Positions 59,391 through 63,768 of a stretch of DNA of 63,768 bases are shown piece after piece; the stretch's first letter is position 1; each line of letters begins with the position of its first letter. Position numbers and translations under genes: made by a program. The notes under the pieces were generated by a model that ran no database searches, was not told the DNA's origin, and worked only from the letters and a program-made list of their open reading frames with translations. Source of the DNA: an uncultured Monoglobus sp. (lineage in GTDB: Bacteria > Bacillota > Clostridia > Monoglobales > Monoglobaceae); assembly GCA_947630135.1 (NCBI GenBank), contig CANRGH010000011.1:1-63768 (forward strand), written 5' to 3'.

Positions 59391-61757
59391 TCAATCCCCG
59401 AGAAGCTCCACGTTTATCTTGTCGCCGCGCGCGTCCACCCGTGCGGTCATGCCGTGAGCGAGTTTGCCGCCGATAAGCAGCCGCGCCAGCTCATCCTCAA
59501 TATTCTTTTCGATATACCTGCGCATCGGGCGCGCGCCGTAAAGCCTGTCGTATGACTTTTCAACGACCAGCGCCTTCGCGTTTTCCGAAACATCAAGCGT
59601 GATCTCCTTTTCGCGGAGCCCCGCGCGGAGATCGTCGAGCATCAGATCGACAATGTCCACAAGCTCCTCTTTTTTAAGCTCACTGAAAATGATCACATCG
59701 TCAACGCGGTTCAAAAACTCGGGTCTGAACAGCTGCTTCAGCGCCCTCTCGATCTTGATGCGCGTTGCCTCCTCGGCCTCGTTGAAGCCGACCACGTTTG
59801 ACTTGTTGTCGCTTCCGGCGTTTGAGGTCATTATTATTATCGTGTTTTCAAACGACACGACCTTGCCGTGACTGTCGGTGATCCTGCCGTCGTCGAGGAT
59901 TTGCAGCAGAATGTTGAACACGTCCTCATGGGCCTTTTCGATCTCGTCAAGCAGCACCACGCTGTAAGGCCTGCGGCGGATCTTCTCGGTAAGCTGCCCC
60001 GCCTCGTCATAGCCGACATAGCCCGGAGGCGAGCCGATTATTTTTGAAACCGAGTGCTTTTCCATGTATTCCGACATGTCGAGGCGTATCAGCGACTCCT
60101 CGCCGTCGAACACCTCGCGCGCGATCTGCTTGGCGAGCTCGGTTTTTCCGACTCCCGTGGGGCCAACGAAAATAAACGATACCGGTCTGCGTTTCAGGTT
60201 TATTCCGGCCCTCTTGCGCCTGATGGCGTTGGCCGCTCCGCTCACAGCCTCGTCCTGTCCGATAACGCCCTTGTGCAGGCGATTCTCAAGGTCCGTGAGC
60301 CGCTCGGACTCATACTCCGTGATGTGCTTCACCGGAATTTTGGTCCAATTTTCAATAACCGCCGCGATGTCCTCGGGTTCGAGATATTTCACGGCCGACT
60401 TCTCAACCTCGGCGATCTTTGCCTTAAGCTGCAGCTCATGCACCTTGAGATCGGCGGCCTCCTGATAATTATCTGCCTCGGCCGCCGCGTCCTTTTTGGA
60501 GATCGTTTTCCCGAGCTCGGTGTTCAGCTTCTCAAGCTCGATAAGCTCGCGGTTGTTAAGGTTTACCTTGCTGGCCGCCTCGTCGATAACGTCGATCGCC
60601 TTGTCGGGCAGAAATCTGTCCTGAATGTACCGCTCGGAAAGCACCGCCGCGGTTCTTATTATCTCGTCGGTGATCTTCACCTTATGATAGCTTTCGTAAT
60701 AATTCTTTATTCCCTTTAAAATCTCGATCGTCTCGTCGACCGTCGGCTCGTCAATCATAACGGTCTGGAACCTGCGCTCTAAGGCCGAGTCCTTCTCGAT
60801 ATGCTTTCTGTACTCGTCGATCGTGGTCGCGCCGATCACCTGGATCTCGCCCTTTGAAAGCGCGGGCTTTAAGATGTTTCCGGCGTTCATGCCGCCTTCG
60901 GCGTCTCCGGCGGAGGCGATCGTGTGTATCTCGTCGATCACAAGCACGATATTGCCCGCCCGTTTTACTTCTTCAATAATGTTCTTGAGCCTCGACTCAA
61001 ACTGGCCGCGGAACTGTGTGCCCGCGATAACCGAGGTCATATCGAGCAGGTATATCTCGGTGTTCATAAGCTTGTGCGGAACCTCGCCGTTTGCGATCCT
61101 CAGTGCGAGGCCCTCGGCGATCGCGGTCTTTCCCACGCCGGGCTCGCCGATCAAGCAGGGATTGTTCTTGGTGCGGCGGTTGAGTATCTGAATTGTCCGC
61201 TCGATCTCGGTATCTCTGCCGATAACAGCGTCGATCCCACCGACCGCAGCCTTGGCGGTAAGGTTCACGCCGTAGGTGTCAAGCATGCGGTTCTTTTTGC
61301 GCTGCTTTTCCCTGACGGCCTTTCTCGGCCCGCCGCGGTTCTCGCCCTGCGGCTCCTGCCGTGGGCCGCCCATAAAGCTCCCGAACAGGCTGAACGGATT
61401 GCGCTGTCTGCTGCGGCTCATCGGCTCCTCGCCGCTTTTGTCATCGTCCGGCTCTTCCTCGGCTGCCTCCATTGAAACAATGTCCGCGTCGCCACTGAGC
61501 TCCTGGCGCAGCATGTTTATGCTCTCGCCTATGTCAAAATCGTCGCCCATCTCGTCGAGCACATCCTTCATCTCGCCGTTGAGACGGTCCATTTCCTCGG
61601 CGTCTATTCCCATTTTGCTCAGAATATTATCTATCGGGCCCAGGTTCAGCTCCTTCGCACACGACAGGCAATAGCCCTCGTTGCGCTGGGAACCGTCCGG
61701 GCTTATTTTTGAAATAAACACAACAGCAATATTTTTATGGCATCTGCAGCAAAGCAT
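59391..61757 (-). CDS. ClpE-like Clp ATPase with N-terminal zinc finger
   Basis: A 788-residue two-ring Clp ATPase. Instead of the usual double Clp N domain it begins with a small zinc finger (Cys3-x2-Cys6 and Cys30-x2-Cys33), followed by an acidic and a basic linker (about 45-165). AAA1 has GEPGVGKTAIAEG, the middle has a short UVR-like helical part, and AAA2 has GPTGVGKTELAKQIA. This layout is that of ClpE, which unfolds proteins for ClpP. The start is ATG 61757 with AGGAGGGG; 61778 has no site. No CtsR-type operator is visible upstream. Confidence 0.9.
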   Translation of the reverse strand: MLCCRCHKNIAVVFISKISPDGSQRNEGYCLSCAKELNLGPIDNILSKMGIDAEEMDRLNGEMKDVLDEMGDDFDIGESINMLRQELSGDADIVSMEAAEEEPDDDKSGEEPMSRSRQRNPFSLFGSFMGGPRQEPQGENRGGPRKAVREKQRKKNRMLDTYGVNLTAKAAVGGIDAVIGRDTEIERTIQILNRRTKNNPCLIGEPGVGKTAIAEGLALRIANGEVPHKLMNTEIYLLDMTSVIAGTQFRGQFESRLKNIIEEVKRAGNIVLVIDEIHTIASAGDAEGGMNAGNILKPALSKGEIQVIGATTIDEYRKHIEKDSALERRFQTVMIDEPTVDETIEILKGIKNYYESYHKVKITDEIIRTAAVLSERYIQDRFLPDKAIDVIDEAASKVNLNNRELIELEKLNTELGKTISKKDAAAEADNYQEAADLKVHELQLKAKIAEVEKSAVKYLEPEDIAAVIENWTKIPVKHITEYESERLTDLENRLHKGVIGQDEAVSGAANAIRRKRAGINLKRRPVSFIFVGPTGVGKTELAKQIAREVFDGEESLIRLDMSEYMEKHSVSKIIGSPPGYVGYDEAGQLTEKIRRRPYSVVLLDEIEKAHEDVFNILLQILDDGRITDSHGKVVSFENTIIIMTSNAGSDNKSNVVGFNEAEEATRIKIERALKQLFRPEFLNRVDDVIIFSELKKEELVDIVDLMLDDLRAGLREKEITLDVSENAKALVVEKSYDRLYGARPMRRYIEKNIEDELARLLIGGKLAHGMTARVDARGDKINVELLGD

Positions 61758-61789
61758 TATACCCCTCCTATTTGCCAATATATTTATAC

Positions 61790-61818
61790 ATTATAGCACA
61801 ACAAAATTCTTTTCGCAA
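61790..61818 (-). promoter_or_regulatory. SigA promoter of the Clp-smc-ftsY run
   Basis: Minus strand: TTGCGA (61813-61818), 17-bp spacer ending TGC, TATAAT (61790-61795). Confidence 0.78.
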
Positions 61819-61878
61819 CAATAATATTAATAAAGTTTTTGCCATTCTGTAAATTTTGTAAAAATATAATATGTAATC

Positions 61879-61907
61879 TTGAACTTTTTTCGGATTTGTG
61901 GTATAAT
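61879..61907 (+). promoter_or_regulatory. SigA promoter of the MocR-type gene
   Basis: TTGAAC (61879-61884), 17-bp spacer ending TGG, TATAAT (61902-61907). Confidence 0.8.
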
Positions 61908-61955
61908 TACTATGTATTTGCGGGTAAACGCCATATGAAAACGGAGATGGATTTT

Positions 61956-63347
61956 ATGTCGGTTTACAGTTTTATTGCCAAGGATAACGGAGTGCCGGTC
62001 TACCGCCAGCTTCAGCAGGCGCTGACCGACGATATTAAGTCGGGCAAATATGACAATATGCAAAAGCTGCCCTCGCGCCGCAGACTCGCGCGGGAGTTGG
62101 GTCTCAGCACAACAACGATAAACAACGCGTATCAGGCGCTTGTTGACGACGGCTATGCGGTCACGGTCGACCGAAGCGGCTTTTACGTCAAGGCCCCTGA
62201 CATTTCCGCCGAGATCTACGACGACGTCAAATGGGAAGCCAGCGCGGATTATAAATATAATTTCAGCTACAACAACTGCGAAAGCGCCGCGTTCAAGGAA
62301 TACTGCGCGAGGCCCGCGGAAAAATTCATCCGTGACTCGGGTGGGATCGCGTCCTCTTTTTTCGGCCACGGGAACAAGCGCGGCGAAAGCGCTTTCAGAA
62401 TATCCCTCTCGAAGTATCTGAGCGAAACGCGCGGAATAGACTGCACGATCGGCGACATTATCGTGGGCGCGGGAATTCAGTATCTTCTGACGGTTATCGT
62501 TATGATACTGGGCCGCGACAGAGTGTACGGCTTTGAAAACCCCACCGATTATAAAATGTATGTATGGCTCAAAAACCTGGGCGCGAACATTAAGCTTTTG
62601 AACATTTCAGCCGAAAAGCCCGTGACCCCCACAGCCCTTGACGAGGCCGGAATCGACGTCATGTTTCTCATGCCCGAGAACCAGCTCCCCACCGGCCGCA
62701 GAATGGAGCTTAAGGAGCGCCGCGCGCTCGCGGAATGGTGCGCCTCGGGCAAGGGAAAATATGTGATCGAGGTCGCCTCCGACGGCAATCTCAACTACGC
62801 GGGCAAGAAGATAAGCACGATCTACACTCTGTCGGGCGGCGCGAATGTCATATACGTCGAAAGCCTCGAGCACACCATAGCGTCCAACGTGAAAACGTCG
62901 TTTATGGTGATGCCGCCCGAGAGCATGGACTCGGTCATAAAGAGGCTTGAGATGTACTCGCCATCCGTCACGATATACGAGCAGCTTCTTTACTCGAACC
63001 TGATAAACGACGGACACCTTAGGCGGCTCATATCAAAAAACAACAAGCTTATGAAAGAAAAGCGGGATTTTCTTATATCCGGCCTTAAAAGCTCCAAGCT
63101 CGGCGAAAGGTTCACCGCTCTTAACGCCGACGCAGGCATGAACTTTTTGGGGATGATAAAGAGCGAAAAGAGCGGGCCGGAGCTGACCCGCGCCGCCTAC
63201 GACGAGGGTGTGAAAATTTTTGAGATGAGCAAATTTTTGCTCGCTCCAAACCCGGGCATTGAGCGCGGAGCCTTTGTTTTCGGCTACGCCGGCCTGAACC
63301 TCGCCGAAATCGAAGACGCGATAAAAAAACTCGAAAAAGCCTGGTGA
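61956..63347 (+). CDS. MocR/GntR-type regulator with degenerate aminotransferase domain
   Basis: A 463-residue regulator with a winged helix (about 10-78; PVYRQLQQALTDDIKSGKY, then LPSRRRLARELGLS) and a class I aminotransferase-like domain (about 110-463). In MocR proteins the second domain binds PLP through a Lys in a S-K-T-L-A-P segment. Here the gapless equivalent, ESLEHTIASNVKTSF, has His306 at that place. The EDDYD element, whose Asp contacts the PLP ring, reads EVASD. Cofactor binding is thus doubtful. ATG 61956 is chosen with GGAG upstream; ATG 61935 is in frame. Target genes are unknown; it stands alone. Confidence 0.85.
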   Translation: MSVYSFIAKDNGVPVYRQLQQALTDDIKSGKYDNMQKLPSRRRLARELGLSTTTINNAYQALVDDGYAVTVDRSGFYVKAPDISAEIYDDVKWEASADYKYNFSYNNCESAAFKEYCARPAEKFIRDSGGIASSFFGHGNKRGESAFRISLSKYLSETRGIDCTIGDIIVGAGIQYLLTVIVMILGRDRVYGFENPTDYKMYVWLKNLGANIKLLNISAEKPVTPTALDEAGIDVMFLMPENQLPTGRRMELKERRALAEWCASGKGKYVIEVASDGNLNYAGKKISTIYTLSGGANVIYVESLEHTIASNVKTSFMVMPPESMDSVIKRLEMYSPSVTIYEQLLYSNLINDGHLRRLISKNNKLMKEKRDFLISGLKSSKLGERFTALNADAGMNFLGMIKSEKSGPELTRAAYDEGVKIFEMSKFLLAPNPGIERGAFVFGYAGLNLAEIEDAIKKLEKAW

Positions 63348-63351
63348 CCAA

Positions 63352-63395
63352 CTCCCTCCACCGCTTCCGCGGTCCCCCTCCCTCAAAGAGGGAGG
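63352..63395. repeat. Palindromic repeat fragment
   Basis: Two neighbouring hairpins: ACCGC-ttcc-GCGGT (63360-63373) and CCTCCCTC-aaa-GAGGGAGG (63377-63395). It is related in its CTCCCTC/GAGGGAG core to the elements that follow and may be an inverted partial copy. Confidence 0.6.
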
Positions 63396-63466
63396 CGTTT
63401 GTGAAAGCTGTCGAAACGGCATAACTCAGCGAATAGCCTTCCAAACACAAAGTGCCTCAATTTACA

Positions 63467-63515
63467 GCTCCCTCCGGGAGGGGGCTGGCTGCGGCTTGTC
63501 CGCAGACTGAGGGAG
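63467..63515. repeat. Two-hairpin palindromic element, copy A
   Basis: Starts GCTCCCTCCGGGAG, then a second stem CTGCGG-cttgt-CCGCAG (63489-63505), and ends TGAGGGAG. CTCCCTC can pair with either of the two downstream GGGAG-type segments. Confidence 0.7.
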
Positions 63516-63540
63516 AACGCGCGCTTACTCCCTCCACCGC

Positions 63541-63768
63541 TATCAACGTAGTGATTAGCAATTAGTAAATAGTGATTAGACAATAAAACACCACAAACAA
63601 CGGCTCCATCCGGGAGGGAGCTGTCGCCGAAGGCGACTGAGGGAGATCGGCGCGCTTACTCCTTCCACCGCTATCAACGTAGTGATTAGCGATTAGTAAA
63701 TAGTGATTAGACAATAAAACACCACAAACAACGGCTCCATCCGGGAGGGAGCTGTCGCCGAAGGCGAC
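63541..63768. repeat. Tandem 131-bp direct repeats, cut by the window end
   Basis: The unit starting TATCAACGTAGTGATTAGC occurs at 63541-63671 and again at 63672-63768, almost identical, with the second copy truncated by the window edge. Each unit has an AT-rich half (with the element also found at 20864) and a two-hairpin half (copy B 63603-63645, copy C from 63734) whose second stem is GTCGCC-gaa-GGCGAC. No gene lies between 63348 and the end. Confidence 0.85.

Follow-up and report, generated by a model that had tools for sequence, protein, structure and literature searches.

A MocR-lineage regulator encoded near the end of the window (the whole 63,768-nucleotide stretch of DNA from an uncultured Monoglobus sp. 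that was analysed) lacks the lysine to which PLP is bound in this family, together with most other PLP contacts, and these losses are fixed among its orthologues in the genus, where the aminotransferase fold of the effector domain is retained under purifying selection. The reading favoured here, with moderate confidence, is that of a living, PLP-independent regulator of MocR descent in which a remodelled pocket senses a small ligand directly. PLP dependence is part of how MocR regulators are described, and no account of MocR proteins naturally without the lysine was found in the literature accessible in full or in part, a weak negative in that subscription papers fell outside its scope.

Domain structure and fold

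The regulator and its two domains are placed as follows.
61956..63347, forward strand: MocR-lineage regulator of 463 aa (ATG at 61956, stop at 63345-63347)
62001..62189, forward strand: GntR-type winged helix-turn-helix, residues 16-78 (Pfam PF00392, E 2.3e-13, 50 bits against a cut-off of 27)
62244..63344, forward strand: aminotransferase-fold effector domain, residues 97-463 (AlphaFold2 domain model)

Descent from MocR proteins, as proposed in a preliminary description of this DNA, is borne out by both sequence and fold. The domain order is that of GabR of Bacillus subtilis (PDB 4n0b, 6uxz, 5t4j), to which the protein aligns over its full length by phmmer (E 3e-50, residues 14-462), and the two share the AAT fold. 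The comparison of a predicted structure with GabR that the preliminary description had called for was made with a model of the effector domain (residues 97-463; mean pLDDT 83.7, pTM 0.85), which superposes along its whole length on GabR residues 107-468, with a VIA Z of 43.4 and 2.0 A over 356 residues. PdxR (Bacillus clausii, PDB 7pq9), of like fold, is second with a Z of 42.0, GabR and PdxR being the top matches in both Foldseek and VIA-align. The N-terminal GntR winged helix and C-terminal fold type I aminotransferase-like domain expected of a MocR protein were found by Pfam and by the model, respectively, and by its Pfam score the DNA-binding domain is intact, as had been supposed. All AlphaFold2 predictions are of the monomer; a full-length model was dropped for the pocket in favour of the domain-only one, its mean pLDDT being 67.6, its TM to GabR 0.39, and the pocket loops 242-248, 276-285 and 306-313 lying below 50 pLDDT.

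The best NCBIfam model is PdxR (NF052282), at 296.7 bits under its 320-bit cut-off, and the GabR model scores 229.5 bits against a cut-off of 600. The protein was classed neither as PdxR, being below that cut-off and flanked by ClpC-like and SMC-like genes rather than by a divergent pdxST, nor as GabR, being likewise below cut-off and having lysines 200 and 426 at GabR Arg207 and Arg430.

Pocket residues and their conservation

Contact residues of GabR were those of Table 2 of PMC6917764, and their counterparts were located by alignment.
62547..62555, forward strand: Asp198-Tyr199-Lys200, with Asp at GabR Tyr205 (ring stacking) and Lys at Arg207 (carboxylate)
62769..62783, forward strand: EVASD (272-276) replacing EDDYD, with Val273 at Asp279 and Ser275 at Tyr281
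62871..62873, forward strand: His306 codon, at GabR Lys312 (PLP Schiff base)
62892..62894, forward strand: Lys313 codon, at GabR Arg319 (PLP phosphate)
63231..63233, forward strand: Lys426 codon, at GabR Arg430 (carboxylate)

The phmmer alignment runs without gaps around residues 297-320 and sets His306 on Lys312, in agreement with the preliminary description, and this register is independent of any single short match because the domain model superposes on GabR over its whole length. The replacement of EDDYD by EVASD was also recovered in the GabR alignment. Of the further claim that a lysine stands where an arginine binds the carboxylate, the substitution holds, Lys313 lying on Arg319, but the role does not: according to PMC6917764 (Table 2), Arg319 contacts the PLP phosphate, and it is Arg207 and Arg430 that hold the carboxylate. 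The alignment also places Leu244 at GabR Phe250 and Tyr105 at His114. The window protein thus differs from GabR in that Lys312, Asp279, Tyr205, Tyr281, Phe250, Arg319, Arg207 and Arg430 are all replaced, and at the three positions used to recognize a PLP-dependent MocR, namely Lys312, Asp279 (the pyridine-nitrogen residue) and Arg319, it carries His306, Val273 and Lys313.

Orthologues with 54-98% identity were found in 10 of the 11 other genomes of the genus, and none was found in G008, a 74% complete genome. Nine are full-length without internal stops and the tenth (L015) is truncated by a contig end, giving an alignment of 11 sequences, the window protein included, of which 10 are full-length. 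Lysine is absent from the Lys312 site in all 11, which hold Tyr (six), His (three), Leu (one) or Phe (one), so that the lysine-keeping orthologues that would have spoken against the loss did not appear; and because 10 other genomes of the genus carry the gene, none with the lysine, chance or sequencing error is ruled out as its source. His306 as a conserved functional residue, the importance given to it in the preliminary description, was rejected on this variation, the absence of lysine being the conserved trait. At the Asp279 site all 11 have Val, Thr or Phe, the equivalents of Tyr205, Tyr281 and Phe250 are lost throughout, and the Arg319 site is Lys in six, His in four and Arg in one. Asp198 and Lys200 are kept in 11 of 11, and Lys426 in the 10 that cover its position.

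The ligand-side positions (105, 198, 200, 244 and 426) are invariant in all 10 full-length orthologues (permutation p 0.008), as are the pocket loops 193-200 and 239-247, in closely related sequences that share 139 of 367 AAT positions in any case. Mean conservation at the four PLP-chemistry positions is 0.60, that of the domain being 0.78 (p 0.08 for a low value), and lower conservation there is only suggestive. With a dN/dS of 0.037-0.136 (Nei-Gojobori) in five of seven pairs tried, dS being saturated in the other two, the AAT domain is by this measure under purifying selection; this is a living gene whose effector domain is constrained.

MocR proteins of the genus, the family and the phylum

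Three further MocR proteins were found in the same genome, L002, L003 and L004, each with Arg at the site, so that all four lack the lysine, a circumstance missed in the preliminary description; the EDDYD element of the three reads EADFD, EDDIS and EYGYD, respectively. Among the matches listed for 12 Monoglobus genomes are 46 MocR proteins, a set that leaves out the short G010:C40 fragment, a second piece of the G001 orthologue and short GntR-only matches, and at the Lys312 site these have Arg (34), Tyr (six), His (three), Leu, Phe or Thr (one each) and in no case Lys. Nine proteins from other genera of the family comprise six with Arg, two with Lys and one with Asn.

For comparison with Bacillota at large, 149 genomes were searched with the PdxR model and 89 proteins fetched, these being essentially all the full-length ones among the matches listed; the three other own-genome rows, a frame-split G158 hit and aminotransferases without a DNA-binding part were omitted, and removal of an own-genome duplicate (L100) left 88. 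Among these listed matches 81 have Lys, three Arg, two Asn and two Gln, and Asp279 and Arg319 are kept in 81 of the 81 with Lys. The difference from the genus in presence of the lysine has a Fisher p of 8e-29, a value that overstates the contrast because the proteins are related. The seven proteins without Lys (L093, L099, L101, L102, L124, L127 and L173) mostly have an otherwise intact PLP pocket, and a full-length MocR on a contig from a viral collection (L177:442-1839) has Asp at the site and an intact EDDYD. A 2019 classification gives Asp279 and Lys312 as conserved across all MocR clusters (PMC6677901).

A tree was made by a quick method, with SH-aLRT support only, from 94 of the 163 rows and without the Lys column, the rows dropped being duplicates, fragments and most of the distant MocRs. 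The window group branches off on a long stem, 1.23 changes per column in length, inside a 44-row clade with an SH-aLRT of 99 in which most proteins are of the Arg type. This clade also holds the Arg-type MocRs of the family (L002, L004, L016, L045 and others), with the lysine replaced mostly by Arg; several of them retain EDDYD or aromatic stacking residues, whereas the window group is the most altered. At least eight changes between Lys and non-Lys are required on the tree, and the direction of some is ambiguous because three rows within the clade, L044, L078 and L079, have Lys. Three of the four own-genome MocRs pass the PdxR cut-off, yet none has the lysine; profile-based annotation thus misses its loss.

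Unlike PdxR, the window regulator does not lie beside pdxST, and the MocR protein of its genome that does is L003, on contig C3.
L176:4346-5821, divergent from pdxS: PdxR-type regulator L003
L176:3398-4270, reverse strand: pdxS
L176:2824-3393, reverse strand: gene that we take, from its start sequence, to be pdxT-like

With the NCBIfam PdxR model L003 reaches 495 bits. A pdxS gene was found in nine of the 12 genomes of the genus, and in all nine an L003-type MocR adjoins it divergently; the other three, with no pdxS match, gave no such protein. The lysine is replaced by Arg in every one of the nine, with Asp279 and Arg319 kept and Ile in place of Tyr281. Because of the missing lysine, any PLP sensing by the pdxS-linked regulator must do without the usual aldimine. 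The lysine-less MocR proteins of the genus must sense otherwise or be fixed in one state.

Neighbourhood and possible mode of action

Upstream of the regulator lie two promoter-like sequences and a divergent gene.
61879..61907, forward strand: promoter-like TTGAAC-17-TATAAT on the regulator side (consensus scan; TATAAT retained in most aligned upstream regions)
61790..61818, reverse strand: promoter-like TTGCGA-17-TATAAT before the divergent ClpC-like gene (consensus scan)
59391..61778, reverse strand: ClpC-like ATPase, divergent neighbour, with a short cysteine-rich N-terminus

The consensus scan found three sites against 1.7 expected. The window's intergenic region holds no shared direct repeat, and those seen in some orthologous regions were short, AT-rich and not common to all six regions searched; the search yielded no operator, and an Rfam search over 61000-63768 gave no match. 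In nine of 11 loci (the window and L035-L042) the divergent neighbour is the ClpC-like gene; L043 has different neighbours, and in G009 the regulator and the ClpC-like gene are separated by a protein of 2130 residues (L081:10309-16698) that matches pectinesterase and, weakly, GDSL lipase. For the ATPase, Pfam gave AAA_2 and ClpB_D2-small in the L036 copy, with no Clp N-domain among the best 25 families listed; in the window copy the usual Clp N domain is replaced by a short N-terminus with two Cys-x2-Cys pairs. The other neighbour of the regulator is, as we presume from its sequence, SMC-like. An Hpt protein and an HD-domain response regulator lie downstream in six of the nine loci with downstream sequence, their domains being named by Pfam on the L036 copies only (L036:12064-13586), a place before which the window ends. 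The end of the window, 63455-63768, is repetitive with a period of about 131-136 bases: two copies of 119 nt match at 98%, and a third copy is partial.

By analogy with GabR and EnuR, the winged helix would bind DNA and the aminotransferase-fold domain would hold the dimer. The PLP half of the pocket appears dismantled, the equivalents of Lys312, Asp279, Arg319, Tyr205 and Tyr281 being gone, and the ligand half conserved, with two lysines (200 and 426) where GabR holds a carboxylate. In the most likely mechanism, a small and probably acidic ligand would bind without PLP and change the shape of the dimer and its binding to DNA; the protein itself would then bind no PLP, and both the ligand and its charge are deduced from the pocket. 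Control would probably extend to its own promoter and perhaps also to the divergent ClpC-like gene. Fixation throughout the genus together with a constrained effector domain suggests a changed way of working, and direct binding of a ligand is favoured by the lysines at the carboxylate site and the invariant loops.

The chief competing explanation, possible but less probable, is that the effector domain is a dimerisation scaffold only, the protein binding DNA constitutively or being regulated through its abundance or by another protein as partner; signalling proteins are encoded nearby, downstream in six of nine loci. The laboratory mutant EnuR Lys302His, which carries the same change as the window protein, binds no PLP, persists as a dimer and acts as a constitutive repressor, according to PMC8739950, and variation among H, Y, L and F at the lysine site would fit mere filling of a silent pocket. 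In that mutant, however, induction is lost, whereas in the window protein the change is natural, the absence of the lysine is fixed in the genus, and most other PLP contacts are lost with it. Function was also lost in BioL Lys340Ala (PMC12915131) and MpaR Lys314Ala (PMC10790758), and loss of the lysine alone is thus harmful in PLP-dependent regulators. A bare scaffold would have no need of two lysines at the carboxylate site, nor of invariant ligand-side positions and loops, and of the two options left by the preliminary description, a different ligand or a pure dimerisation module, the pattern of conservation appears to favour the first; invariance of the pocket need not mean ligand binding, however, because the orthologues are few and close and the pocket loops contribute to folding and to the dimer interface as well.

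Retention of PLP or PMP, bound non-covalently or through Lys200 or Lys426, is improbable. Both lysines are invariant and by alignment line the old pocket, so that either could in principle carry PLP, and there are lysine-less relatives whose pockets are otherwise mostly intact, the Arg-bearing PdxR beside pdxS for example, but in the window group the equivalents of Asp279, Tyr205, Tyr281 and Phe250 are absent from 11 of 11 sequences and that of Arg319 from 10 of 11. That the gene is decaying, or is a product of faulty assembly or sequencing, might be imagined because the window stops in repeats 421 bases beyond it and the genome is a 42-contig draft; this is contradicted by nine other genomes in which the orthologue is full-length and free of internal stops and by a dN/dS well below 1, and is most improbable.

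The PLP-independent, ligand-sensing reading can be extended, as a speculation that we consider rather doubtful, to a genus-wide move of MocR proteins off covalent PLP, in which the pdxST regulator would need no Schiff base to sense PLP and the window group would directly sense another small acid, possibly a pectin sugar acid; the pectin idea comes from G009 only, in which a pectinesterase-domain protein is the divergent neighbour. A genus without the lysine in all of its sampled MocR proteins, with one tested group under purifying selection, constitutes a natural test of PLP-free sensing by the AAT domain.
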